This document shows, piece by piece, positions 1 to 20,214 of a stretch of 20,924 nt of DNA. A program made the position numbers and the translations under genes. Positions within the stretch are counted from its first letter, which is position 1. Every line of letters starts with the position of its first letter. This DNA is from a virus. The notes under the pieces are model-generated. The model was not told the origin of the DNA, searched no databases, and saw only the letters and a list, made by a program, of their open reading frames with translations. The stretch lies in the IMG/VR virus record IMGVR_UViG_3300009502_000237, positions 1 to 20,924 of that record; one strand, 5' to 3'.

Positions 1-186
1 ACAGTATGAGTACCCTGTGGGTACAATATAATTATTTAGTATCTGCATTGCATTTGCATCACAAGATATAAAACCATTTCCCATCGGATTTGCATTTGCT
101 TTACCATTAGGATTAAATGTGTACGTTGCGGCATCTGATATATCAATCCAAATAAAAACCAACGCGAACAATAAAATTTTAAACAT
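1..186 (-). CDS. Partial exported protein of unknown function
   Basis: A reading frame starts at ATG 184-186 and stays open for 62 codons to the window edge, so the C-terminus is missing. A good Shine-Dalgarno (AGGGGGT) lies about 5 bases before the ATG. The N-terminus begins MFKILLFALVFIW and continues to an ISDAA-type site near residue 20, which looks like a Sec signal peptide with signal peptidase I cleavage. The visible mature part is Asn-, Pro- and Gly-rich (TYTFNPNGKANANPMGNG) and has Cys near residues 44 and 62. It follows two small membrane-protein genes with an 18-bp gap, in the same direction. I do not recognise the family. It is the third gene in this area with a signal-peptide-like start. 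It could be another surface or fibre-like protein, or an exported lysis protein. Confidence 0.6.
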   Translation of the reverse strand, partial: MFKILLFALVFIWIDISDAATYTFNPNGKANANPMGNGFISCDANAMQILNNYIVPTGYSYC

Positions 187-203
187 GCAACCCCCTAAAT
201 GTT

Positions 204-386
204 TCATTTTGCTTCCCTTCGTAATCCTGCATGAGTTTCTGAGATCATAGTTTTATACTCTTTCGATTCGGTGTCGATATGGTGGCGGTGAAAGTGCCTG
301 CCAATGTTGTCCTTGTTGCATAATCCAATAAGCGCGATTACCAATGACACAATAGTAATTAGCAATTTTATAGCATTGTCGCTCAT
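204..386 (-). CDS. Small one-helix membrane protein, possible holin
   Basis: A 60-aa protein with one strongly hydrophobic segment at about residues 5-23 (IKLLITIVSLVIALIGL), followed by a polar tail with a His-rich HFHRHH patch and several Lys and Arg. It overlaps the upstream gene by ATGA, so the two are probably translationally coupled. Small membrane proteins just after tail genes are commonly holins or other lysis-cassette parts, but one helix and no recognisable family motif make this an inference from position. No endolysin is visible; it could lie left of the window. The next gene starts 17 bp after the stop with its own strong ribosome-binding site. Confidence 0.65.
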   Translation of the reverse strand: MSDNAIKLLITIVSLVIALIGLCNKDNIGRHFHRHHIDTESKEYKTMISETHAGLRREAK

Positions 387-661
387 CTTCGCCCTCTCGC
401 AAGCATCAAAAGAGTATCAAGTTTACCATTATTTTCTTTTATCAATTTTATATCTGATGCAATCAAGTCGGTTTTTACTCCCATAGATGTAATTGCTGCA
501 TCCTGCGCATTTTGCTCTTTGGCGTACTTATTATTAACCCCTATTGCGCCTCCAAATAAAACAATCATAATACCGATAAACCATGGCCACGAAATGTAAA
601 CCTTGTCACACTCTTCTCGCATTTCCTTAAAGCAATTAACGTCTTTTTGCTGCTTATTCAT
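383..661 (-). CDS. One-helix membrane protein with coiled-coil tail, lysis-cassette candidate
   Basis: A 92-aa protein with a charged N-terminus, one hydrophobic segment at about residues 25-42 (WPWFIGIMIVLFGGAIGV) and a polar helical C-terminus with heptad-like spacing (IASDIKLIKENNGKLDTLLMLA). This is the general build of small phage holin-associated or XhlA-like membrane proteins, but I see no diagnostic motif. The start at 661 is preceded by GGGAGA about 8 bases away. It lies 18 bp after the last fibre-like gene and overlaps the next small membrane gene by ATGA. The pair may act together, for example as holin and a modulator. A virion or exclusion role cannot be excluded. Confidence 0.65.
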   Translation of the reverse strand: MNKQQKDVNCFKEMREECDKVYISWPWFIGIMIVLFGGAIGVNNKYAKEQNAQDAAITSMGVKTDLIASDIKLIKENNGKLDTLLMLARGRR

Positions 662-679
662 CGCTGCATTCTCCCGTTG

Positions 680-2251
680 TTATTGTGTGATATATGTAAA
701 CGACCCCTGAATTATTTTTGTTCCACCTATACCCCATGTCCCTGCTCCGGTTATTCCAGGATTAAAGCTTACAATAGCAGTTGCATCAACAATTCCAGTA
801 CACAGTTCAAAAGCTCCGCCATTCTCGCTTCCATTCCGTGCTCTACATAAAAACAATTCTCCGTTTCCTGTCGCAGAAGGCCAAGGCAGGGAAAATGTTG
901 CTTTTGAGGTATAGCTATCCCCTGCAATCTGAAACGAGCAATGCGCAAGTTTCCCTATTTTGTAAACATTCAAATAACTATATCCATAGGAAGACCACCC
1001 AGTAATAGTGGAATATGCTAGATAATCGATTGCACTTCCACAACCACCTATTGTTTTTGGAGTATAAATAGAATCAATTCGCACATTTCTTCCAATTGCT
1101 CTAAAACATCCACTATCTGCTGTAAACGTTTGGGGAATCGCTGCATTACCATTGCTCCATACTGTAAACGAGTTTACAGATGAGTCCCCGCTTTTACATT
1201 GCAAAACCTTATCATTCTCATTGTTGCCACCGGAAGAAATCCACGCGCCTCTCGATTTAGTTGTCGGGTTCCTCATTGTAAAATCACCCATAACGGTAAG
1301 TTTTGATTCGGGGTCAGTGGCGCCGATGCCGACTTTGCCGGAGCCAACAATTCGCATTATAGGCGTTGTCGGTGTTCCACCTTCTGAAAAATCAATATTA
1401 GTATTAGCAGAATTTGCACCAGAACCGGAAGCAAGTATCCGCATGTCGTAAGTATTGGATACTGGCCGCATCATTATATTAACACCTGATCTAAATTGCA
1501 TCGATTGTGATGATGTTCCGTCAATTGTAACGAGAGATGACGGCGCAGAAGTCCCAACACCCATATACCCGTTTTTCTGTATCACCGTCCCATGCACATT
1601 TAAACTATCAATATTAGCTGTGCCTAATGTTGATATACCAGATACTCTTAGTTTTAAAGACATTACAGAATCATCGAAAATACCAGAGGAATATCCATGT
1701 ATTTTATTTACAAATACATTACTATCCGTATTTATAAATAATTTTTTTGCTGCTATGTCCATATCTCTTAGATTATTGTTTGTATCTGTAAATGCAATTG
1801 AATTTATTCCGACACCGCTGAAAGGGGCAAAACTAACAGAATCATTAAGATTCACTCTAAATCGCGTGGCTGATTGTCCAGCGTGTCTTTTACCTATAAG
1901 CAATGTATCTAATCTTAAAGAATTTCCAATAATTCCCTTTGCACTGTCCGTTAACTCTTTGTATATGTACCATCCATCATTTCCGAGCGTTCTGCTTTGT
2001 AGTTGATATGTAATATTGTGAGACACGCAATACACTAGCATTCCAACTGATCTATAACCTATCGGTATTAAATCCCTAACAGTTTCATTTAATACCGATC
2101 TGTACCCCCCGCGATTCCACTCTTCTGCCGTGGCTGGATAGGGTGAATTGCTGTCAACTGGTACGACCACGCTTTGCACATTAGTTCCTAGTGGAGCACC
2201 CGAAAAAGATCCTGTCGCAATTATCAATCCGATTAATATTGTTTTTATCAT
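680..2251 (-). CDS. Fibre-like protein with N-terminal signal peptide
   Basis: About 523 aa from the ATG at 2251. I prefer this start to the one at 2290 because GGGG lies about 8 bases before it, it follows the upstream stop at 2253, and the protein then begins with a typical signal peptide (MIKTILIGLIIATGSFSGA). The mature part opens with a region containing RSVGMLVYC and TYQL motifs seen in phage appendage proteins. Two 'VGxGxxxP...L.V.G' elements follow near residues 230-245 and 307-323, typical of repetitive fibre or adhesin shafts. The C-terminus, from about residue 415, has YKIGKLAHCSF and TFSLPWPSATG, resembling beta-rich receptor-binding heads. It probably binds a cell surface. A signal peptide is odd for a virion protein assembled in the cytoplasm, so a surface-exported adhesin is an alternative. 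Confidence 0.75.
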   Translation of the reverse strand: MIKTILIGLIIATGSFSGAPLGTNVQSVVVPVDSNSPYPATAEEWNRGGYRSVLNETVRDLIPIGYRSVGMLVYCVSHNITYQLQSRTLGNDGWYIYKELTDSAKGIIGNSLRLDTLLIGKRHAGQSATRFRVNLNDSVSFAPFSGVGINSIAFTDTNNNLRDMDIAAKKLFINTDSNVFVNKIHGYSSGIFDDSVMSLKLRVSGISTLGTANIDSLNVHGTVIQKNGYMGVGTSAPSSLVTIDGTSSQSMQFRSGVNIMMRPVSNTYDMRILASGSGANSANTNIDFSEGGTPTTPIMRIVGSGKVGIGATDPESKLTVMGDFTMRNPTTKSRGAWISSGGNNENDKVLQCKSGDSSVNSFTVWSNGNAAIPQTFTADSGCFRAIGRNVRIDSIYTPKTIGGCGSAIDYLAYSTITGWSSYGYSYLNVYKIGKLAHCSFQIAGDSYTSKATFSLPWPSATGNGELFLCRARNGSENGGAFELCTGIVDATAIVSFNPGITGAGTWGIGGTKIIQGSFTYITQ

Positions 2252-2252
2252 T

Positions 2253-3056
2253 TTATAACCCCGTAGCTGAAAATATGAATGATCCGACATTAGTTGTCGC
2301 GGTTATATATACATAATAGTCTCTTGTATCACCATACGCATTTGTTATACTAACGGTAGATTTTACCCATGTAACTGCAAAACCATTAGCAAATAATTGC
2401 ACATCGCCCCACGATTTAGGATATGCATAGTACACATATTTGCTATATCCGTTCACAGAAATTGATGTTTGTGCTCTATACGCAGCATTCTGATACTGCC
2501 AGTTTTTAATCCCCCTATTTACGTCTGCGGCTGCCGGAGTTTCCGCCGAGGTGGTGTCAAGATATTTAGCAATCAAAAAATACACCCATGTATTCGCACT
2601 AGTCGGTGTTGTTCCGTCTGTTATTGCCAACGTGTAATACTTGTCTGTTGTCAAAGATAATCCAGTAAAGGCGTGCGCACGATCGCTAAGAGCAGGGGTG
2701 CAGTCAGTCAATGTTTGCGAAGTGATTGGCGCGCCTATCAACGTCCAGTTTACCGTAAGCGCCGTTACCGTTTGCCCTGTGTATAGGGCCCCGGTCGTAT
2801 TCGTTAATGTGGCAATCGTTGGAGGTGTGTAACGCTTTTTAATCACTCCATTTTGTATCACCAAGGCACTGTCCGCGCTGTAGGACGTGGCGATCGGTGC
2901 GGCGGTCAACGTCACGCTTTTTATACTTGCCGTTGCGGTATCGGCTTTGATGTGTTTGCGTGCTTGCAAAGTATCGCTTGTAAGAGGGGCACTATAAATA
3001 ATGCCACATGACACAATCAAAAAAACTAAGCTAAAACATTTTCCGTGTCTACCCAT
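2253..3056 (-). CDS. Fibre-like protein with N-terminal signal peptide
   Basis: A 267-aa protein. The N-terminus (MGRHGKCFSLVFLIVSCGIIYSAPL) has a short basic part, a hydrophobic core and a YSA-APL-type cleavage region. An IVSC stretch could be read as a weak lipobox. The mature region has short Thr/Ala-rich repeats, then an Ig-like or fibronectin-like stretch (about residues 90-165), and a C-terminal domain with KYVYYAYPKSWGDV, NGFAVTW and NAYGDTRDYYVY, a pattern I associate with phage tail or appendage proteins. The start overlaps the upstream 97-aa gene by 31 bp and has GGTGAG just before the ATG. It stops 1 bp before the ATG of the next fibre-like gene, so the two are probably co-translated. 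Virion fibre and exported surface protein are both open. Confidence 0.7.
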   Translation of the reverse strand: MGRHGKCFSLVFLIVSCGIIYSAPLTSDTLQARKHIKADTATASIKSVTLTAAPIATSYSADSALVIQNGVIKKRYTPPTIATLTNTTGALYTGQTVTALTVNWTLIGAPITSQTLTDCTPALSDRAHAFTGLSLTTDKYYTLAITDGTTPTSANTWVYFLIAKYLDTTSAETPAAADVNRGIKNWQYQNAAYRAQTSISVNGYSKYVYYAYPKSWGDVQLFANGFAVTWVKSTVSITNAYGDTRDYYVYITATTNVGSFIFSATGL

Positions 3057-3319
3057 GTCTCACCAACTTTCTTTTTAATACCAAGGTTTCCTTCTGTAGT
3101 TTCAAACAAAGCAAAATTAGGGGTTATCTCTATCATACCATCAATAAATGCAGCGCAAGTATGATAATCCCCGTTTATATCTTTATATGCGATAATAAAA
3201 TTATCAGTTTCAATTCCTATTTGATGTATTCCCATATTCTCAGTTAAATCTTCTCTGGTATTATTTAACCTAAAAACATGTTTTCCTACGCTTCCCGGTT
3301 CGTTTTTTACATTTCCCAT
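3026..3319 (-). CDS. Small tail-region protein of unknown function
   Basis: A 97-aa soluble protein, acidic overall, with no signal peptide or membrane segment. It begins 1 bp after the stop of the large tail hub gene and overlaps the first fibre-like gene by 31 bp. Predicted character is mostly beta (HQIGIETDNFIIAYKDINGDYH, then MIEITPNFALFETTEGNLGIKK). Position suggests a tail-tip accessory or a connector between hub and fibres. I recognise no family, so the role is inferred from context only. The GTGGAT stretch about 8 bases before the ATG is a moderate ribosome-binding site. Confidence 0.65.
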   Translation of the reverse strand: MGNVKNEPGSVGKHVFRLNNTREDLTENMGIHQIGIETDNFIIAYKDINGDYHTCAAFIDGMIEITPNFALFETTEGNLGIKKKVGETWVDTENVLA

Positions 3320-3320
3320 T

Positions 3321-6300
3321 TTATATATCCACAGCTCTTCTATCTTGTATTACTTCATACAAGTCTGGGTTTCTGTAATAATCTTGCCATTTTTCTAACG
3401 TGTCAATTTCAACATAGCAATCTTGTATTTTTGACAAAAAGAAATTAGATATAATATCATCAAGTAATATAACTTCGATATTAATAATGTTATTGTTTTT
3501 ATCTTTTACAATGCTTTCGATAACGCATTCGATATCTCCACCATTTGTTTGATGAGGCAAATTAATATTTATATGTTGGGCAACGTGCCAATCTCTCGCC
3601 CACGAATCATCTGAAGCAACATATACATACGGGATATTAAAAGATACCCTACGCAACCCCATGCGGTTTACCCATTTTGTAATATAGGCAAGCGCATCAG
3701 AATATGTTGTTATCATTTCGCAATCGGTCAAGTCAGAAGGGGCAAGCTCGATCTGTCGGAATCTATTCCAAAGCGCATGGCACGCTTCCCAAACTTCTTG
3801 GCCGTCAGTCCCCTGAAACCCCGGCGTCAATTCTGGTTCCCATCCGATTCCCGCTGTGTGTATCGTTCCGTCTGTTTTCGTGTAGGTGGAATCTGCGCTA
3901 TTTAATACCTGCAAATTCTTATCAAACTTTTGTGATCCTGGGTTATACGAATAATTTATAAGAGGATTTACAAAAACGTCTTGTGATTTAGGCTCCTTCG
4001 TTGCGCCAATATCATCTACAATTGCACTTAGTGAAATAGTGGCAAGTGTCGAAGCAACCCCGATAGTGTTCTTTTTTGTGAATACATCCTCTACGCACTC
4101 ATACCCGTCTTTGTCTTGATATGTGCAAAGTCCGTAACGCTTACAAATGAGTTCTGCGATTTTATCAGTGCCCGCTTTGTCCCTGTCGAAGATCTGAAAT
4201 GCTGGGCGATAGGTATACAATTCAGCGGGAAGGTTGTCGTATGATCCATCCACCGCACCGATTCTTATTTTGATAGAGGGAGAATATTCTTTCCCAAAGT
4301 CAACAGCATCACCATACTCTGAACCGTTCTGCAATCGTTTTACGTGTTCCAATATGGCAACTGGGTTGTCTATAAGATCCGTAGCAACAGCACCGTATCG
4401 AGTTGCAAAAGCAGTGTCATTATAAATGCGACCGCCGAACATTGCATAAATATCTTTTGAAATAGAATAGGATTTTTCACAGATGAGAGCCAGTTCGTAA
4501 AGACGCTTTATTATTGTATGACTATCTATCTGAATTACTGGTGGCGACCCCATGCTAATAGCAACAGGATGCTCGAATCCTTGCAAAAAATACATCTTAT
4601 GAATAGATTTTAAATTTTCTTTTGATTCTATTGGAATTTTGAAATTTTTGTGATATCCAATATCTGTTGACATTTCATTTATTAATAAATTATAATAAAA
4701 ATGCTTATTATTATCATTGTCTGTTCTTGTTAAATAATAAAAATCAGGAAGATTTTTTATTGTTGAAAAACCATCATTTATAGATAAAACAGTATCAGAA
4801 TAATAAACAGTATCTACGCTGCCTATTTTAGATGCGTATTCACTCGATGCTGTTTTTAGGCCAATAAATCTTTTATATAAAATTTTTGAAAAATGCTTAA
4901 TTATTATAGGAGGAGCAAACTCATTAGTTATTGCTGTTTTTGATTTAAAATCAATTCCTAAATAAAACGAATCATAATTAATAAGTATTTTATCTTTTGG
5001 AATATCAAATTCCCATACAGCTATGACCGTTCTAGTTGATAATGATGTAGCGTGCGAATGTACTTTTTGTTCATAATACGTAGAATCATTTCTATCTACA
5101 CAGTCAACAGATAATGATCCAGAATATTCATCTGCCGACAATGTTGATTTCTCACCAAACCAATTAGTATTTGCGATAAGGTTTGTATATGCTCCATTAA
5201 TTTCCTTTACAATATCATCATTAGTATATTTAATTATATTTTCCATTTGGAAAAAATCATACGTCACCAACTGGTTAGGATCATTCTTGAATAGTTTTAA
5301 ATCAATAATAAGTTTATTTTTCAGCGCGTCAACTACACTGGAGTATCCGTATTGCGGTATGAGAGTACAACCTACTTGATCAAGTGATCGTTCTTCGGTT
5401 GTTACTAAGTCAGCTGTAGTAGTAAACTTGCTTGTGTATTTGCCTGTTGAATCGCTATTGTAAACAGCAAGACGCGGATAATCGGTTGCTGCTATTGCGT
5501 CACCGTTCTCATCAATAAACCCCTTGCACGGCCATGTATCAGCTGTAAACTCAAACGGAATATCTACAATCATTACCCATGCGTTATTCTCTGCCGTTGC
5601 ATCGCTACTTACGCAAAGATTTTTTTCAAAGAACGAATCAAGACAAATAATAATTCCAAGTCCACTATAATCAATTACATACCCTTGTCGTATTGTAACC
5701 GACGTATTGGATATTGCATTTGCGGAAACGGTAATTGTGTCGATTGTTTTGTCAAGGACTGTCCAGTCAAATAAATTAGCACTAGCTGAAGCAAATCCGG
5801 CGTTTAATGTCACGCGTGAACCAGTAACTATGTTTGACGTATCGGATACTTCCGTTATTATCGGAGAACCACTTGTTGTTGTTCCGATTATTTGTGCATA
5901 CTTTCCTATCTTTCGGTATACACCTATAAACGAATCGTTTCCATCAGCAATCGAAGCGCCGCCCACTGTTATTTTTATATACTTTTCACTTGGATTAAAT
6001 GCGTTGATAATAGTGGTAAGGGGATCACCGCTTGTCCCTCCAGTTCCAAACTTTAACTTATAGGCAAGATGCGGGGAATTAGTATCCCCAACGGCTACTA
6101 CAGGAAATGTATTCGTTCCCTTTGGGGTCAAATAGACTGTGTCACCCGAAAAATCATTTGTAAATACTGTTTGTTTTGCGGAAACACGATTAAACTTTGC
6201 ATAAGATTTCACTTGTGTTGCAGGATCAACACTATCATTTACATAAAATTTCCCAAACGTCAAAGGAACTATTATTCCGTTTTGATCGTCGAGAGCTTTT

Positions 6301-7220
6301 TTAAAGTTGCCGTTCACTGCATCATTGTTTACTATTACGCCACATTCAGCACGTCTTTTATATTTGTTGTTCGGGCAAGAAAGTGAAAGTATTGTCTCAT
6401 TCCATTCGGGGTCTTGAATACTACCTGTAAATATTATATCCGCGCTTGTCGAATCGTTGTCGGCCTCTGTTCCCCTAAATTCCCAAAGCTCAACAGTAAA
6501 GCCATTCAATACTATTCCTAATTCCTGCAATCGCAAAATGTATTGATTAGTGTTAAGTATCGAAACATTAATTCCATCATATTGAACCGGTGATCCACTT
6601 CTTGACCCATCAAAACTTTGCTTGATAGTCGATATTCCATTTTTAGCAAGTATGCCAGTTGCCCAATCAAGAACAGTTCCAACAAGCAGATTTTCACATA
6701 ACCGTATTTCCGACTTACTCTTATATATTACCGTTTCTGTAACACTTGTCGCAGTTGCGTTTGTACCAAGCTTTATCCAAGTATTGCCAACGTCTATGAC
6801 TGTCCGATCTGTCGAATCTTCCCAACCTGTAGGACATTGTACCAACGTGCCTATACTTATCCCTGTAGTGCTATCCATAGCACAAACGCAAGGCGAACCA
6901 GTTACAGTAGCCAAAAGAGAAAGCCCGCCCATTCCGCTACCGCTCGCATTTGTTGAAACAGTGATCGTATTGATTGTTTTTGTTAAAACAGAAACATATC
7001 CACCATACATAGTTCCATAAACTTTACATCCGATAGGGATGCTGTTTATGTCCCCTGTTGTTACTGTAAAGATAGGCGAACCGTCCGAATATGTCCCACC
7101 AAATGCAAGCGTAGAAGCAGATTTTGTTCCCGAAGAAGAATATAGTCCTAACTCTGTATGTTCTTCGTAAAGATCATCACATATTATTTTAATTGCCTGT
7201 ACTATTTTATCATGACTCAT
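3321..7220 (-). CDS. Large tail hub / tail-tip protein
   Basis: At 1299 aa this is the largest gene here. It overlaps the distal-tail-like gene by ATGA, and it lies where siphoviruses encode the central hub (J or Tal-like) protein. About residues 230-295 (ELWEFRG, IIFTGSIQDPEWNE, LSCPNNKYKRRAECG) resemble the start of hub proteins that describe a shifted surface plus its conversion. The last 150 residues (WARDWHVAQHININLPHQ, then IECVIESIVKD) look like the C-terminal hub beta domain. Three copies of a small beta module (GSP....G..V....KTI.TITVS.NA) occur at about residues 47-93, 104-160 and 448-508. The stretch coding for about residues 650-890 is far more A+T-rich than the rest. There is no obvious peptidoglycan-hydrolase motif. 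The hub role is inferred from position, size and these patterns. Confidence 0.75.
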   Translation of the reverse strand: MSHDKIVQAIKIICDDLYEEHTELGLYSSSGTKSASTLAFGGTYSDGSPIFTVTTGDINSIPIGCKVYGTMYGGYVSVLTKTINTITVSTNASGSGMGGLSLLATVTGSPCVCAMDSTTGISIGTLVQCPTGWEDSTDRTVIDVGNTWIKLGTNATATSVTETVIYKSKSEIRLCENLLVGTVLDWATGILAKNGISTIKQSFDGSRSGSPVQYDGINVSILNTNQYILRLQELGIVLNGFTVELWEFRGTEADNDSTSADIIFTGSIQDPEWNETILSLSCPNNKYKRRAECGVIVNNDAVNGNFKKALDDQNGIIVPLTFGKFYVNDSVDPATQVKSYAKFNRVSAKQTVFTNDFSGDTVYLTPKGTNTFPVVAVGDTNSPHLAYKLKFGTGGTSGDPLTTIINAFNPSEKYIKITVGGASIADGNDSFIGVYRKIGKYAQIIGTTTSGSPIITEVSDTSNIVTGSRVTLNAGFASASANLFDWTVLDKTIDTITVSANAISNTSVTIRQGYVIDYSGLGIIICLDSFFEKNLCVSSDATAENNAWVMIVDIPFEFTADTWPCKGFIDENGDAIAATDYPRLAVYNSDSTGKYTSKFTTTADLVTTEERSLDQVGCTLIPQYGYSSVVDALKNKLIIDLKLFKNDPNQLVTYDFFQMENIIKYTNDDIVKEINGAYTNLIANTNWFGEKSTLSADEYSGSLSVDCVDRNDSTYYEQKVHSHATSLSTRTVIAVWEFDIPKDKILINYDSFYLGIDFKSKTAITNEFAPPIIIKHFSKILYKRFIGLKTASSEYASKIGSVDTVYYSDTVLSINDGFSTIKNLPDFYYLTRTDNDNNKHFYYNLLINEMSTDIGYHKNFKIPIESKENLKSIHKMYFLQGFEHPVAISMGSPPVIQIDSHTIIKRLYELALICEKSYSISKDIYAMFGGRIYNDTAFATRYGAVATDLIDNPVAILEHVKRLQNGSEYGDAVDFGKEYSPSIKIRIGAVDGSYDNLPAELYTYRPAFQIFDRDKAGTDKIAELICKRYGLCTYQDKDGYECVEDVFTKKNTIGVASTLATISLSAIVDDIGATKEPKSQDVFVNPLINYSYNPGSQKFDKNLQVLNSADSTYTKTDGTIHTAGIGWEPELTPGFQGTDGQEVWEACHALWNRFRQIELAPSDLTDCEMITTYSDALAYITKWVNRMGLRRVSFNIPYVYVASDDSWARDWHVAQHININLPHQTNGGDIECVIESIVKDKNNNIINIEVILLDDIISNFFLSKIQDCYVEIDTLEKWQDYYRNPDLYEVIQDRRAVDI

Positions 7221-8086: not shown

Positions 8087-9886
8087 CTATCGTCCCGCCG
8101 TTACCAGATAGTCAACCAACTTTTGTACGCCACGATCACCTGATCGCAATTCCTGATATAAATTTTCCGCTGTAGATTTTGACCCGTTTATTGTCACATT
8201 GAACGTATGACCACTTGTCATACTCTTTGTCGTGCTGTTGTTTATCACTTGTGAACCGCGCGGCAAGTTAATCATTTCCGGCCCGCGCTCTCCGACAAGC
8301 GACATGCCACCAGGAGCGTTGTATGTGCCAAGGGCGAATTGAGTTGATTGTATCGTTGCAATATTAGTTGCCGTTTCTGCCGCCGCCACTACTCCTCCAG
8401 CAATTGCCAGCGCGGCTTTATCGTAGAATGTAACTCCTGTATCCCAACCCGCCTTTACAGCAGTTACAATTGATGCTGCGCCTTCAGCAATAGCTATACC
8501 AGTAAGAATATTCTTTTTTTCTTGAGCTTGCATTTTGGATTGATTTACAGCAAATTTTCCAAGCTGGACAAGTGCGTTAGTTGTTTTATATGATGCTGTC
8601 CACATGCTCTCTTTTATTTTTTTATCTTGATCTGCTTCCCAAATAGATATTCTTACTCTTCCCTCTGCTTGCTCTGTTAGCAATTTAGTTTTATTTACTT
8701 CTATTTGTGCATCTAAATCGGCAGACGTAGCAATTGATTTTAAATAATCTTGATTTTCTTTGTACCTTATTTTATGCATTTTCGTTATATGCTTCATGTA
8801 ATCGTCTTGCTCTGCTTTATATCTCGATTGTCTTTCTATCTCTTCTTTGTCTTTTTTTGGATCTTTAAAATCACTAGAACTATACAAAGATTTATTATTT
8901 TCTGATTCTTTATTATCAATTTTACTTATTGCCGATTCATTCATTTTAATTTGTGATTTTATCGCGTCAGCTTCAGCTTGAGCGATAGCTATACGTTCGC
9001 GCCTCAACGCTCCTGTTTTATCACTCCAAACCGCATACCCATTTGAAGCGTTTTTAATAGCAGAATCGATAGCTATAATTTCATTCTTGTTTGCTGCAAG
9101 CTCCCCTTCTGTTATACTCTTTTTAACGTCATCCCTATCGTCTCCATGCAATGTTTTAAAAAATGCCGCAAGTGCTGTTGTCCCCGCAATTATTGCAGGC
9201 GTAAACGTAACCGAGAACTCCGCCCCTAAAACCTGAGTAGCTTTTTTAAGCCTTGTTTGCGCTTCTTCTGCATCATGCAATCTTCGGATTGTTTCCTTGC
9301 TAAGCAGCAACCCATACTTGTCAACTTCTTCGTATAGCCCTTGTATTTCTTCTTTGCCTTTTCCGGCAATCCCCATTACTTCATTCATGCCTTTGCCAAA
9401 TAACTTATTGGCAATTGCAGCGCGTTCTGTCGTGTTAGGTATTTCGGAAAGCTTTAAAAGCGTATCTTTAAATATATCGCCAACTTCTCGCATCCCGCCG
9501 TTTTGATCTTTTACTGATATGCCAAGCACCTTAAATGCCTTGTTATTATCATAGGCTTTTACAGCCATGTCTTTCAATGCTTTTTGTAAATTCTCGACAG
9601 AGGATCCTGACATTTTTGCGACATAGTCAAGTTTTTGAACCGATTCTACGCCCAACCCTGTACGGTTTGCCATGTCAGTTACGGTTGCGCCGTATTCAAC
9701 ACCAGCCTGAACAAAATCCTTGATTTTGTCAACAGCAAAAAGACCAGCAAAAGCTCCGGCCACTTTCGTTATAGTGCTTGATACACCTTCTATTTCTCTC
9801 CCGAATTGCTTGACTCCAGTTTCAACACCTGTCAACCGTTTTGAGAAATCATCAACCAGAGTTAATACAACTTTTAAATCACTCAT
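8087..9886 (-). CDS. Tail tape measure protein
   Basis: A 599-aa protein with long helical, Lys/Glu/Ala-rich stretches (about residues 240-460), hydrophobic segments near 40-52 (KVAGAFAGLFAV) and 470-510 (ILTGIAIAEGAASIV and AALAIAGGVVAAA), and the C-terminal signature GGMSLVGERGPEMI with a following RGSQVI, very common in tape measures. It sets tail length and is ejected ahead of DNA. Its start overlaps the tail-chaperone extension by ATGA, the standard position. By the rule of roughly 0.15 nm per residue, 599 aa would give a tail of about 90 nm, shorter than lambda's. That length is an estimate from family behaviour and not read from sequence. Confidence 0.9.
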   Translation of the reverse strand: MSDLKVVLTLVDDFSKRLTGVETGVKQFGREIEGVSSTITKVAGAFAGLFAVDKIKDFVQAGVEYGATVTDMANRTGLGVESVQKLDYVAKMSGSSVENLQKALKDMAVKAYDNNKAFKVLGISVKDQNGGMREVGDIFKDTLLKLSEIPNTTERAAIANKLFGKGMNEVMGIAGKGKEEIQGLYEEVDKYGLLLSKETIRRLHDAEEAQTRLKKATQVLGAEFSVTFTPAIIAGTTALAAFFKTLHGDDRDDVKKSITEGELAANKNEIIAIDSAIKNASNGYAVWSDKTGALRRERIAIAQAEADAIKSQIKMNESAISKIDNKESENNKSLYSSSDFKDPKKDKEEIERQSRYKAEQDDYMKHITKMHKIRYKENQDYLKSIATSADLDAQIEVNKTKLLTEQAEGRVRISIWEADQDKKIKESMWTASYKTTNALVQLGKFAVNQSKMQAQEKKNILTGIAIAEGAASIVTAVKAGWDTGVTFYDKAALAIAGGVVAAAETATNIATIQSTQFALGTYNAPGGMSLVGERGPEMINLPRGSQVINNSTTKSMTSGHTFNVTINGSKSTAENLYQELRSGDRGVQKLVDYLVTAGR

Positions 9887-13980: not shown

Positions 13981-16104
13981 TTAAGCACCGGCATTCTTTC
14001 CGATACCGCGCCAATCGGAAGCTCCCACAGCAAATATTGACATAAGATCCCAGACGATTCCGCGAGCCTGTCCGATTTCGGATGGTGCCGAACGAATCTG
14101 AGGGGCTTCTTCACCTGCGAGAGTCGCAAGTACAAGATGCTGCGCAACATTCGAATCCGCTGCGAAATACCATGCAGTTGTTGACACTTCGTCAATGTAC
14201 GGCGTGGTAATAAGCTCGATACCCATAGATGCGAACGGATTGACAATTGCAGGGTTTGTCTGGCTGTTGCTCCCGGTAGAGTTTGTATATGCTGCGGGTG
14301 AACCGAGAACCTGCTGCCACTGCGACCACTGGGTTTCACCGGTGATGATATACTTGATAGGAGCTTGCGTATACTGTGCCTTGCTCACGCCATCTGGTGC
14401 AGGCAGTTTGATCGAGCGCAACAGTTTTCGGGCTTCGGCAAGCGACGGCGTAGAAGGTGCCGCACTTGATCCGATGTTCGCATGTGTCGAATGAAACATT
14501 GGCTGTGAATCTTCGTTCATTGTCGGGCCAACAACTCCGGAGCCTGTTCCTTCGGAATTTCCGCGAATGAGGAAGTTATACGTTGCGCGATCTTTCTTGC
14601 GTGCAACCGCTCCACCCATGGCGGAAGGGATGCGAGAGAATGCCGATTTGTCGTCGTTGACAATCGCCTCAAATGAAATCGAAAATGCTTTCATGTATTT
14701 GTAAAGCGTGATCAGTTCGCCCTTATCGGCGAACCGGCCCCATTCAGGATTTTTGCCTTCAGGAACCCAGTCGATATCCGAGAAATTGGACATGTTGACA
14801 AGTTTATTCTGTTTGAAATCGTTGAGAGATTGACGACCGATCCAACGATCATACGTTGTCTGAATCTCGTCGTAACCCTTCATCAAAAACTTGTTTGCAG
14901 CAGCGGCAAGAATATACGCAAAGTCGCCGGAAGCCTGAGCAATCGCGCCGCGTGAACCAAAATTGCCTCCCATTATTTCGCGCGCAATTTCGTTTGCGGA
15001 CATTGTGAGAACGCCCTTTGCGCCGGAACGCTCGAGACAAACTTTTGCAAGTGCCTGGAGCCCGTCAACGCCGCGAATCTCTGAGCCTTCAACCTTTTTT
15101 GCGCTTTCGGAATCGATGCGGCTTGCTCCGATTGCGTTCCGAATACATATCGCAGTTGTCGCAACTTCACGGAATTTATCGGCTTCATCTGCTGTGATTG
15201 CAATGTTGCCGCCCTGTTCCCCGGGGTTCTTTGCAGCGACCATACGTTTCTGCGCTTCGACGATAAGTTTGCGCTGTACGTCAAGAGCGGGTGTCAATTT
15301 CGAGAGATCTTCTCTCACGAAATCAATTTCGATTCCAAGCTCACGGCAAGAATCTTCGATCTGATTTCTGCGCGAACCTTCAGCCTCAAGAGCTTCCTTG
15401 ACTGCTGCTTTCCGAATGTTGTCCACGTCAACTGTATTTGCAGTGGGCGCGGGTGTCTGACCTTCTACGTTGTCGGCCATGAGAGCCTCTCTTTCTTTGA
15501 TGTTAGAGTTACGGTCACGGAACTTGCTTCTCGCATCCGCGCCAATTGGAGTCGTAGATATTTCAAAAGGTTTCCAAATTGTTCGAACAGCCATTCTCAT
15601 TTTGCTGTTTGTGTTATCGTACTCTTTTCCGTTCACTGTTCCACGCTGTCCCGGCTCAATCCATGATGTTGCATCCGAGAATGTCTGATACCCGACTGAT
15701 AAATCAGTCAAGTGGCCCTCACGCGCAAGTGTCGCAATATCATCGGCAAGCGAAGAGAAATAAACGTCTGTCTCACTTGTCCCATTGTTCATGTTTTCCA
15801 TATTGCGGCATGAACCGCGAACAGAGCAAGACCCTTCGCCGCGACTATGATTGTCAAGTAATGGCACTTGTCTATTTTCTGGCAACTGCATACCATCCAT
15901 ACAAAGAACTTCACGTATGAGATCGTCTTGGCTCCAATCGTATACAGTTACAGGCTCTTCACTTGAGAAAATAGCGCGGCATTTGCGTTGCGTAACGCTT
16001 CCCTTCTCGTCTTTCTCTTCCACATAAGAACCTGGAGCAAAAGAACGATATAAACCGCCATCAATTAAATTTTCCTGCTTGTTTTCATTATTGTTCTTCG
16101 GCAT
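13981..16104 (-). CDS. Prohead protease - scaffold - major capsid fusion protein
   Basis: A 707-aa protein with two recognisable parts in one frame. Residues 1 to about 200 look like an S78 (HK97-type) prohead protease: PLLDNHSRGEG with His86, LTDLSVGYQ with Ser136, and WKPFEIST with Glu181 followed by PIGADARSKF, the order His, Ser, Glu expected for the active site. Residues about 209-310 are helical and charged, like a scaffold (delta) domain. Residues about 310-707 are the capsid subunit (KDRATYNFLIRG, APIKYIITGETQWSQW, TTPYIDEVSTTAWYFAAD). The gene overlaps the portal by 17 bp and starts after AAGGAAG. It is clearly richer in G+C than its neighbours. An in-frame ATG at 15480 with good ribosome binding could yield capsid alone. 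Confidence 0.85.
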   Translation of the reverse strand: MPKNNNENKQENLIDGGLYRSFAPGSYVEEKDEKGSVTQRKCRAIFSSEEPVTVYDWSQDDLIREVLCMDGMQLPENRQVPLLDNHSRGEGSCSVRGSCRNMENMNNGTSETDVYFSSLADDIATLAREGHLTDLSVGYQTFSDATSWIEPGQRGTVNGKEYDNTNSKMRMAVRTIWKPFEISTTPIGADARSKFRDRNSNIKEREALMADNVEGQTPAPTANTVDVDNIRKAAVKEALEAEGSRRNQIEDSCRELGIEIDFVREDLSKLTPALDVQRKLIVEAQKRMVAAKNPGEQGGNIAITADEADKFREVATTAICIRNAIGASRIDSESAKKVEGSEIRGVDGLQALAKVCLERSGAKGVLTMSANEIAREIMGGNFGSRGAIAQASGDFAYILAAAANKFLMKGYDEIQTTYDRWIGRQSLNDFKQNKLVNMSNFSDIDWVPEGKNPEWGRFADKGELITLYKYMKAFSISFEAIVNDDKSAFSRIPSAMGGAVARKKDRATYNFLIRGNSEGTGSGVVGPTMNEDSQPMFHSTHANIGSSAAPSTPSLAEARKLLRSIKLPAPDGVSKAQYTQAPIKYIITGETQWSQWQQVLGSPAAYTNSTGSNSQTNPAIVNPFASMGIELITTPYIDEVSTTAWYFAADSNVAQHLVLATLAGEEAPQIRSAPSEIGQARGIVWDLMSIFAVGASDWRGIGKNAGA
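15478..15491 (-). promoter_or_regulatory. Internal ribosome-binding site and start inside the protease-capsid gene
   Basis: GAGAGG at 15491-15486 stands 5 bases before an in-frame ATG (15480-15478, Met209). It lies exactly between the protease part and the scaffold part. Starting here would make a 499-aa scaffold-capsid protein without protease, giving many capsid subunits per protease, as nested genes do in lambda (C/Nu3). Confidence 0.55.
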
Positions 16105-17620
16105 TTACTTCTTCCTTCGGTGAAAAGTTATTTTCCTTTGCCGCAATCTGGGGAATCACTGCGATTCCCATTTCTTCACGCATTTTCTTTTCTTCTGATA
16201 ATTCAGCGTACAGTACATCGCGATTTTTACCAGTCTGTTCGCATATGTCGTTATCAGATACCCACCCCGCATTCTTTTCTGCAATAAGCGCCTGCATATC
16301 CTTGAGCGGGTCAACCCATGCCCAACGATCAGGCGTCCAAACAGCGCGGCAAAAGCCCCATTTATTCTGTCTGAAATCTGATATTGTTTTACCAGAAATA
16401 AAGCCAGACAAAAAAGCCCACTGTACAAATTTATCGTATACTGGTTGGCAAAATGTACGCTTAACAAATTCCTGTTTCTTCTGGTAATATCTGCGCCGAT
16501 CCTGTACGGTTGTACGCGAGCTGGAAAAAGTTGCGCCCCGGGTGTCCGTTGTCAATTCCTGAAAAGAGATTCCCATTCCAACCGCAACTTGCTGCAAATA
16601 CAAATCAAGCATTGCGCCATATGTGTCTTTTATGCTATCAGATGCCTGTATAATCTCGGGCTTGACTTTACTTTTAAAGACTTTACCGGGAGACAAAGAA
16701 ATGTTTCCATCGTTGTTTTTTTGTGATGGATTAAACGCTTTGCTGTCTTCACTTACCCATAAAGCAATTGCAGCTTGTATCCTGCTTGCAATTATCCTAT
16801 CTTCCTGCAATTGCGAAAGATCCCATAGGGTAGTGAGAACCGGAGCAAGCCAAGGAATACCGATAAATTGATTGAAATGCCATTTTTCATACCCGTGAAT
16901 CATGTTATTTGCGGGCATGTCAAAAAACATCCAAGTCAACAAATCTTGGAAGTAATAATGCTGTGCTTCACCGAACTCATTTACTTGCACGCCGTTGAAA
17001 ATCATCGGCATTACCGGCATTGCAAAATTATCATGTGAAAATTCTATGTATGATTGGTCAATCTGTTGAAAAGCGAAAGGAAATTTATTGCCTTTTTGAG
17101 ACGGGACATAATTAAGAAAAAGTCCACCGGAGATACAGCAATTTCCCACATACTTATACTGGACATCATAGAACGAATCATGATCTGGACGAAAACATTG
17201 ATCATTGAATATTTGCCAAAGAGAATCGAGTTCTTTTCCGAGTGCTTTTGTGCCTTCATCTTCGACACCGTCTTTATTTAGCGGTCTTGCTCTTGGAGAA
17301 ATTCCGCGCCCGACTATCTGCGATTGCAAAGCGCGTACTGCATTCCGTGCATATGGATCTGTATCGTATGCTTTCTTTGCACGCGCGTATATTCGTCGAT
17401 ACTCAAGGCGCAAAACATTTTGATCGACAAGTACGGAAGGGTTCCAATCTTGACGGCTTACACTCACGTCCGCTGCTGGATAGTATCTTTCCGCAATACG
17501 CCCTATTTCGCGGCTGAAATGAGCGTCAAAACGCGGATCGGGAGGCATGATTCCTTTACGGAACATACTATAATTGCTTACATGCTCACGAATTGACGCA
17601 ATAGGATTTTTAAACGCCAT
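16088..17620 (-). CDS. Portal protein, lambda B family
   Basis: A 510-aa protein of the lambda-type portal family (lambda B is 533 aa). Indicators are an N-terminal region with RIYARAKKAYDTDPYARNAV, typical of the family, the VGRGISPRARP segment, a stem-type region (QQVAVGMGISFQELTTDTRGATFSS), and the later YQKKQEFVKRTFCQPVYDKF helix. It forms the dodecameric DNA channel at one capsid vertex and is the site where terminase docks. The start shares one base with the gpW-like stop (TAATG). The C-terminus overlaps the protease-capsid start by 17 bp and is acidic (PKEEVNAEEQ). Nothing looks truncated. Confidence 0.9.
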   Translation of the reverse strand: MAFKNPIASIREHVSNYSMFRKGIMPPDPRFDAHFSREIGRIAERYYPAADVSVSRQDWNPSVLVDQNVLRLEYRRIYARAKKAYDTDPYARNAVRALQSQIVGRGISPRARPLNKDGVEDEGTKALGKELDSLWQIFNDQCFRPDHDSFYDVQYKYVGNCCISGGLFLNYVPSQKGNKFPFAFQQIDQSYIEFSHDNFAMPVMPMIFNGVQVNEFGEAQHYYFQDLLTWMFFDMPANNMIHGYEKWHFNQFIGIPWLAPVLTTLWDLSQLQEDRIIASRIQAAIALWVSEDSKAFNPSQKNNDGNISLSPGKVFKSKVKPEIIQASDSIKDTYGAMLDLYLQQVAVGMGISFQELTTDTRGATFSSSRTTVQDRRRYYQKKQEFVKRTFCQPVYDKFVQWAFLSGFISGKTISDFRQNKWGFCRAVWTPDRWAWVDPLKDMQALIAEKNAGWVSDNDICEQTGKNRDVLYAELSEEKKMREEMGIAVIPQIAAKENNFSPKEEVNAEEQ

Positions 17621-18240: not shown

Positions 18241-20214
18241 TCATCTCATACCCCCTGATTTATTCCACCGATCTTGTATGCCGCTTAGAAAATTATCGCT
18301 TTGCTGTTCAGTTGATCTCTGTTGCTGTTGCCTCTGCTCCTGTTCCTCTCCTTTAACCTTTACATATTGATCATCTTTCAACGTTTCGATATTCTCAACA
18401 TTAAATAGATAGTTGTCAAGCTCTATAAACACATATGCCGCCTGAATATAGTTTTCACAATCGCGCATATGGTCATCGTCGCCGTGTATCCAAACCTTCT
18501 TTGTATTCCCTTCCTTATCGCGCTCTTCCCTGTCATACTGCTTTACAAATTGTCTTATATAGTCGTTGCTTATGTTCTCCGGCAAATGCCAGTTATCTTT
18601 TGCACTGTCAACCGCCACAATGCGAGATAAATTCTGAGTATTTCCAAGGTATAGACCATTGTTTCCTTCACGGATAAGCGGATTTATCTTACTTGCAGAC
18701 CCGATATAGGCATATAAAAACGGTATTGTTGCAACAATATGATCTACAAATTTCTGTTTATGACCGCCTCTATCGATAAACCCCGCCGATATTTCCAGCT
18801 TTCGGTTATCTTTTGTAATCAATTCCTTGCCGTAAAGACGCTTTTTTACCTCTTCTGTGACGTATTCCGGTGATTGATCTTGCCCCATTTCGCAACGAAT
18901 GAGCCCGCAATCAAGCAACCATGATTCTTTTCCGTATCCGAAGCCTCGCAGGACAAAATAAAACTCCGCGTCCTGTGTATCTATACCACACAACACACAT
19001 AAAACGCCTTCCGGTATACGCGCATCATGCGTATTATAAGATCCACATTTTCCCCGAAGCCATTCGGTAGATTCTTTCTCTGTTGTTATGCTTGCGAACT
19101 CTCCCATATCCTCATTTAGAAAGGTTCTGATCTTTACAATATCACTCGTCTTTTGCGCTTCGAACCAACGCGCCAACCCCTCAGAAAACTTAAACGAATA
19201 GTCAACGAACCGGTTCCATTGAAACGAAACAGAATTATAATCGCGCCGCTGCGTTATTTCCCCGGCATTGCTTATCGTCTCACCCTTTGCACCCCATACC
19301 ACCCTTTGCCCCATATCGATACGGTCACGCTCTTGTATTGTGTTTTGACAATGAACACACTCGTAATATGCGGCCTCTGTTTGCCGGATCCTGTCCGGGT
19401 CGTGGTCGCATACTTTTTGCTGGTTAGGGATCTCTTTTATCTGCTCAAGTTTAAACTCCTGGTATCGTCCGCATTTAGGGCAAGGAAATTGCGGCCGCAA
19501 ATTGAGAACGCCACTCTTGAACATTTCCTTATGTAAAACATCACCCTCTTCTATCGGGGACGATTCGAGTATTTCTTTTTTCTTACCGATCATCCCGTAT
19601 GCTTCTTGCCGTCCGCGTAATTGTTTTATCACATCGAAATTAGACCGCTCCGAATCCTTGTCCGCTGTGGGATATTTGCATACTTCACTTGCATATATCA
19701 AACCGGCTGAAAATGTCGCTATGTCACTTTTGACTAATGCAGACGCTACTCTGATAATACAATTTCGAAGCGTGATCTTTTCTTTTGTAAGGTGATCCGG
19801 ATTGCCATCCCATAAACGGGCAAGGCGTGGCACCTGTTCAATAGTCGGCTTAATTCTATCCTGAAAAACATTCTCCACCGTGTCGCGCTTGGCATAACAG
19901 AACATCCCATGAAACCCGTATGTATCTACGCAGTACCATACTGCAACCTCCGCAATAAGTGATTTTCCCGTTTGCACCGGCCCGCAATAAATCACAGAAT
20001 TATACTTTGCAATCGCATTCAACGGCTCGATCTGCCACGGATACAATACAAGTTTTCCAGTACTTGCGTATCCAGCCCCAGGCATGAGTATAAAGTATTC
20101 TTCGGCCCATGCAGAAGGGAGTTTCGGCTCTTCCATTGCAAATGAGTCGCGCTCTCCCTCAACGAATTTATGATCGTCTTTTGCTGTAGGAAATATCAGT
20201 GTGTTCTCAGTCAT
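18241..20214 (-). CDS. Large terminase subunit, GpA family
   Basis: A 657-aa protein of the lambda A type (641 aa), the ATP-driven packaging motor and cos-cutting nuclease. The N-terminus has LPSAWAEEYFILMPG, then a Walker A box GPVQTGKS at residues 78-85. The Walker B position reads GLIYASEV (residues 171-178), with Ser176 where Asp is usual and Glu177 as the likely catalytic acid. Zinc-type CPKCG and CVHC pairs lie near residues 240-285. The nuclease part has LCGIDTQDAEFYFVLRG, with the Asp expected in GpA enzymes. The C-terminus is Gln-rich. The start overlaps the small subunit by 8 bp. Confidence 0.92.
   Translation of the reverse strand: MTENTLIFPTAKDDHKFVEGERDSFAMEEPKLPSAWAEEYFILMPGAGYASTGKLVLYPWQIEPLNAIAKYNSVIYCGPVQTGKSLIAEVAVWYCVDTYGFHGMFCYAKRDTVENVFQDRIKPTIEQVPRLARLWDGNPDHLTKEKITLRNCIIRVASALVKSDIATFSAGLIYASEVCKYPTADKDSERSNFDVIKQLRGRQEAYGMIGKKKEILESSPIEEGDVLHKEMFKSGVLNLRPQFPCPKCGRYQEFKLEQIKEIPNQQKVCDHDPDRIRQTEAAYYECVHCQNTIQERDRIDMGQRVVWGAKGETISNAGEITQRRDYNSVSFQWNRFVDYSFKFSEGLARWFEAQKTSDIVKIRTFLNEDMGEFASITTEKESTEWLRGKCGSYNTHDARIPEGVLCVLCGIDTQDAEFYFVLRGFGYGKESWLLDCGLIRCEMGQDQSPEYVTEEVKKRLYGKELITKDNRKLEISAGFIDRGGHKQKFVDHIVATIPFLYAYIGSASKINPLIREGNNGLYLGNTQNLSRIVAVDSAKDNWHLPENISNDYIRQFVKQYDREERDKEGNTKKVWIHGDDDHMRDCENYIQAAYVFIELDNYLFNVENIETLKDDQYVKVKGEEQEQRQQQQRSTEQQSDNFLSGIQDRWNKSGGMR

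Follow-up and report, generated by a model that had tools for sequence, protein, structure and literature searches.

Introduction

Assembly of tailed phages is taken to be an entirely cytoplasmic process, and to our knowledge there is no tailed phage whose fibres pass through Sec; our search for a published precedent for Sec-exported phage fibres found none in the open-access papers searched, subscription journals being outside its coverage. The superinfection-exclusion lipoproteins Cor and Llp are small, phage-made, exported proteins, the genes of which lie outside the tail block. Two fibres of Cellulophaga phage phi18:1, gp60 and gp61, carry the N-terminal domain discussed below, have no signal peptide and are encoded after the gene in the hub position. 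According to the record they, gp61 in particular, are virion proteins by MS/MS, and the sequences of the phi18:2 counterparts were also examined; this evidence shows that the domain is tied to virion proteins, and covers peptide-free copies only.

The present analysis concerns a linear IMG/VR record of 20.9 kb from an uncultured siphovirus (the window, i.e. the whole stretch of 20,924 nucleotides), with its genes on the minus strand, in which three genes at the fibre end (A, B and C) have signal-peptide-like N-termini.

Results

Gene order and close relatives

The gene order starts with a small terminase-like gene and continues, likewise on the minus strand, with a GpA-type terminase (18241-20214), a lambda-family portal (16088-17620; PF05136, E 1.6e-46), a capsid/protease fusion (13981-16104; PHROG 4523, E 7e-91), tail genes and the tape measure (8087-9886). 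The large protein of 1299 residues encoded after the tape measure gene (3321..7220, minus strand) is tail hub-like by this position, and PHROG and Pfam profile searches gave no family match for it; neither this protein nor the 97-residue product of the gene between hub and fibres (3026..3319, minus strand) has a signal peptide. The sole other copy of this virus found, L003, spans the head genes. Scans of viral contigs with gene B, terminase, portal and hub, and of genome contigs with the capsid, returned only L003 or distant repeats, whilst the relatives in the capsid alignment were at most 31% identical and none of them shares the fibre end. The Methylococcaceae MAG contig L187, a 4.4-kb piece, gives no indication of the host.

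Hydrophobic N-termini

A hydropathy scan of the 24 genes found a strongly hydrophobic N-terminus in five of the last six and in none of the other 18 (Fisher P = 1.4e-4); besides A, B and C, the five include two small one-TM genes that lie between the latter two. The starts of A, B and C share one layout, in which a basic n-region precedes a hydrophobic core and a cleavage zone of small residues follows; the three signal-peptide-like N-termini reported in a first-pass annotation are thus confirmed, and those of A and B are kept in relatives. A fixed rule of our own, which differs from SignalP, recognises the Sec/SPase I features (basic n-region, uncharged core, small residues at -3 and -1) in A and B, and gene C has the same layout by inspection only. 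The rule is positive for 11 of 684 ORFs of at least 150 residues (1.6%) in 80 capsid-related phage contigs and at 3 of 562 internal Met sites, compared with two of the roughly 14 window genes of at least 150 residues (P = 0.02 on its own). Two adjacent matches are unusual but not decisive alone; conservation in relatives, described below, provides stronger sequence support for the signals.

The starts of the three genes are well supported by an in-frame stop just upstream of the gene A ATG, by the junction at which the gene B ATG lies 1 nt past the gene A stop (TAA A ATG, with the same spacing in L113, L187 and L199), and by the ATGA overlap of gene C with the upstream gene at 204-386, which makes 207 a more likely start for gene C than the 186 first assigned. 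The cleavage regions originally read as YSA-APL and SGA-APL are in fact YSAPL and SGAPL; the cuts proposed there would leave Pro at +1, which is disfavoured by signal peptidase I, and these sites therefore need correcting.

Genes A, B and C

Gene A (2253..3056, minus strand; 267 residues) encodes a fibre-type protein that begins MGRHGKCFSLVFLIVSCGIIYSAPL and combines a signal peptide, assigned by hydropathy and the rule-based scan to residues 1-22 (MGRHGKCFSLVFLIVSCGIIYS; 2991..3056, minus strand), with a C-terminal region containing a YAYPKSWG motif. A large tail protein of a fecal phage (L004) matches residues 83-250 with its C-terminus, and a PDB sequence search with gene A gave no match; the AlphaFold model of gene A (pLDDT 41.5) was set aside. 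The cleavage sites are ambiguous. One, IVSC17, is lipobox-like, fitting the consensus [LVI][ASTVI][GAS]C that closes a lipoprotein signal peptide, yet hydrophobic residues come after the Cys; processing by SPase II is conceivable from this motif. The A-type counterparts have IASC13 (G001), FISC (G002) or no Cys (G004).

Gene B (680..2251, minus strand; 523 residues; beginning MIKTILIGLIIATGSFSGAPLG) matches PHROG families 23630, 25379 (tail protein) and 24134 (virion structural protein), and has homologues in L113 and L187. Together with the tail-protein C-terminus of gene A, these matches bear out the earlier view that two of the three proteins are fibre-like. Scans and the register described below place its signal peptide at residues 1-17 (MIKTILIGLIIATGSFS, followed by GAPLGTNV; 2201..2251, minus strand), with a cut between S17 and G18 suggested by relatives. 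Directly behind the hydrophobic segment lies an N-terminal fibre domain (residues 18-98; 1958..2200, minus strand), defined by a pattern survey and a structure model, and the rest of the protein contains GVGT/GIGT fibre repeats. Codon 25 is GTG, preceded by AGGA (window 2177-2190), and is a potential start for a peptide-free B; an equivalent is not present in L113, L187 or L105.

Gene C (1..207, minus strand) is cut by the contig end, leaving 69 visible residues that begin MKHLGGCMFKILLFALVFIWIDISDAATY; the signal-peptide start is MKHLGGCMFKILLFALVFIWIDISDA followed by A, and no homologue was found in the loci searched. The visible mature part holds two Cys. Between B and C lie a small one-TM, holin-like protein (204..386, minus strand; hydropathy, and a weak Pfam Hol_Tox match at E 0.018, below the cut-off) and a small TM and coiled-coil protein, probably of a lysis/holin cassette (383..661, minus strand), in the position of small TM genes in L113, L195 and L004. 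These two genes look like a lysis cassette.

The N-terminal domain and its register

The pattern R-D-x-I-P-x3-R-x2-G-M-x-V-Y...W is invariant in the B domain, an invariance due in part to the search pattern. In the AlphaFold model (window 1892-2188) the core of the domain has pLDDT 89-96. The modelled fold weakly matches that of the collagen XVIII trimerisation domain (probability 0.97 and E 0.09 in Foldseek), and its likeness to phage Mtd and a CBA120 tailspike is weaker again; a PDB sequence search with the domain gave no match. From the model, the domain is possibly a common trimerisation module of phage fibres.

A DNA pattern for the motif, checked on the window, matched 83 stretches of viral contigs and 17 of genome contigs, and about 80 phage copies of the domain are without a signal peptide. 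Nearly all phage copies begin just ahead of the domain (e.g. M..IKGTNV.APVVP.DT.D.YPTH), with no hydrophobic segment, and in peptide-free copies, once Met is removed, the Asp of RD.IP is residue 43 in 44 of 83 rows and residue 29 in 9 of 83. Alignments and the register count place the RD.IP..GM.VY motif of window B near the mature N-terminus and in this register: Asp falls at 43 after cleavage in the window (SFS/GAPLGTNV), L187 (YA/GTPNG) and L113 (FA/GTPSG), and at 29 in L105 (QA/GIPLS), itself a member of the 29 subtype. Only in L105 and L187 is the cut behind this register the top-ranked site, its rank being second in L113 and joint second in the window; L172 and the Bacteroidota copies, with Asp at 38-43, fit more loosely. 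As cleaved window B and its nearest kin start where peptide-free copies start, in the window, L113, L187 and L105 the signal peptide seems, from these comparisons, to be prepended to a complete, ordinary fibre N-terminus.

The first-pass annotation had held that relatives starting downstream of the hydrophobic segments would refute export signals. The peptide-free copies are relatives of just this kind, but the signal itself is not refuted by their majority, because the nearest kin (L113, L187) and the separate subtype represented by L105 have the peptide, and because its removal leaves the N-terminus of the peptide-free copies.

Signal peptides in other phages and in host genomes

Gene A has only one other carrier in a scan of viral contigs, the 43-kb G001 (IMGVR_UViG_3300050033_000283), where its homologue (L113 6945-8081) is 50% identical and likewise has a signal peptide (MKKLLLIIAIASCAFGYT; the counterpart of the gene A peptide is MKKLLLIIAIASCAFG). 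The A-B tandem recurs in G001 with diverged signal peptides, about 30-40% identical to those of the window with their character kept, in a phage whose portal (PHROG 156) and terminase (PHROG 38) belong to other families. The G001 B homologue is 42% identical over the N-terminal domain of window B, and a lysozyme gene and small TM genes lie behind the pair. Signal-peptide fibre-type genes also stand where tail and lysis genes meet in G002, G003 and prophage G004. G002 (78 kb) has three signal-peptide genes in tandem and then small TM genes; of the trio, the middle gene encodes the B domain and the last has a match to a virion-structural PHROG. None of the A-type neighbours in G001, G002 and G004 was selected for this feature, yet all have a signal peptide (3/3; at the base rate the chance of this is about 4e-6). 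Window A shares only 22% identity with the G002 neighbour and 15% with that of G004, so the kinship of these two to A is supported by position and a similar C-terminal end.

In G003 (38 kb), which PHROGs 332 and 376 mark as T7-like, a signal-peptide protein of 1097 residues with a tail-fibre-family match is encoded between a peptide-free fibre-like gene and an endolysin, and in the chromosomal prophage G004 signal-peptide genes come after the tail genes. Two small signal-peptide genes (L199:10494-11203) lie behind the putative exported fibre genes of this prophage. A 585-residue gene with a clear signal peptide (MKYILCFLFSTIAFAQ; L156:2437-4191) stands between a peptide-free fibre, which carries the B domain, and small lysis-type genes.

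Signal-peptide copies of the B domain were found in viral contigs (L113, L105 and L172), in genome contigs (L187, L183 and six further Chitinophagaceae/Bacteroidota contigs) and in one additional locus, L219. A tblastn search with seven such proteins found no isolated phage with a signal-peptide copy; in Flavobacterium 11b and the other records examined, the fibres lack the peptide. Signal peptides appear in three places in a tree of the N-domain, which has so few columns that one origin is also compatible with it.

On the host side, Chitinophagaceae MAG contigs L200-L204 encode giant proteins (600-2583 residues) with a signal peptide and the B N-domain, beside gldL and gldM (identified by GldL_N and the GldM C-terminal domain); these proteins may be surface fibres of phage-related type with a link to gliding/T9SS loci. 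They are often two or three in tandem (e.g. L203:308-18216), and those of L203 lie near a protein with an FGE-sulfatase domain. Among 395 Bacteroidota genomes sampled, two have the B domain, the query genome included. No T9SS sorting domain (NCBIfam) was found in the proteins of the window, G001, G002 or G004, nor in the host proteins.

Discussion

We consider it very probable that the export signals of A, B and C are real, and likely that the proteins are exported. That the hydrophobic starts are an artefact, of wrong start choice or chance hydrophobic segments, would be in keeping with a rule that is not a trained predictor and matches at a rate of 1.6%; the translational-coupling junctions, the clustering of the genes and the conservation across phages, including the unselected neighbours, render this very improbable. 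It is also unlikely that the hydrophobic starts are functional without export, being either left uncleaved for a role in cytoplasmic assembly or skipped through an internal start such as GTG25 of gene B. Most homologues of the N-domain do lack the peptide, and this GTG with its preceding AGGA does exist in the window; however, the internal start has no counterpart in L113, L187 or L105, the n/h/c layout is maintained despite sequence divergence, and the Bacteroidota-related copies finish in typical ...NAQ or ...LGQ sites.

As to the fate of exported proteins, the first-pass annotation had weighed surface display against an unusual route of fibre attachment, and we lean slightly towards attachment. 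Tentatively, the most likely destination is still the virion, with exported fibres joining it at lysis, since the peptide stands before a complete, ordinary fibre N-terminus; the genome position, the late-block context and the preserved N-terminal register favour this reading. On this proposal A, B and probably C, bearing genuine Sec signal peptides and, in A and B, of fibre type, would be expressed late, at the same time as the tail and lysis genes, and would be carried across the inner membrane. The gene B peptide would be cut after Ser17, giving a mature N-terminus equal in length to that of never-exported fibres; the fibres may then fold and trimerise in the periplasm and dock onto tails once lysis mixes the compartments.

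The preserved N-terminus may nevertheless serve trimerisation rather than tail docking, as host surface proteins keep it too, and a somewhat less likely alternative is that the exported proteins remain outside the virion as fibre-like proteins, either on the infected or lysogenic cell or set free in the lysate, acting as an adhesin, a receptor mask, an exclusion factor or an aid in glycan binding or degradation. The signal peptides themselves are compatible with this, as are the host-secreted appearance of the Chitinophagaceae giants by gldL/gldM, the chromosomal location of prophage G004 and weak carbohydrate-related Pfam matches in G002, G003 and G004; the lipobox-like motif in A of both the window and G001 also fits, and gene A might, through IVSC17, be a surface lipoprotein. 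In contrast, the genes occupy the usual receptor-binding position in a late tail/lysis block, the window has, the hub aside, no other obvious fibre gene, the mature N-terminus is in register with virion fibres, and neither a T9SS sorting domain nor another surface anchor was detected in the proteins.

Recurrence of the signals across several phages that are otherwise unrelated points to passage of some phage fibres through the host secretion machinery. If these are virion-bound, receptor-binding proteins would have a second assembly route, in the periplasm, of relevance to disulfides, glycans and post-lysis attachment; if they are displayed, infected cells would bear a class of fibre-based surface proteins made by the phage. 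A split assembly, in which the adsorption fibres of some tailed phages are Sec-exported, matured in the periplasm and joined to tails at lysis, the fibre pair being movable between different heads and tails, is a possibility that we put forward with more reserve than the virion destination itself.

The G001 fibre pair resembles that of the window in its genes, order, junction and signal peptides, and differs in having a longer fibre B and a portal and terminase of other families. The N-domain of window B is that of phi18:1 gp60 and gp61 and of the tail fiber protein of Pseudomonas phage HRDY3, and the phi18:1 fibres, like window B, sit behind the hub; however, peptide-free fibres start directly at the N-terminal strand of the domain, whereas window B adds a signal peptide. 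This combination of signal peptide and N-domain is shared with the Chitinophagaceae giants, which reach 2583 residues and are chromosomal, in a gliding/T9SS neighbourhood, whilst window B belongs to a phage late block. Finally, gene A resembles Cor and Llp in being phage-made with an export signal, to which it adds a lipobox-like motif, but those proteins are small and encoded outside the tail block, whereas gene A lies inside it.
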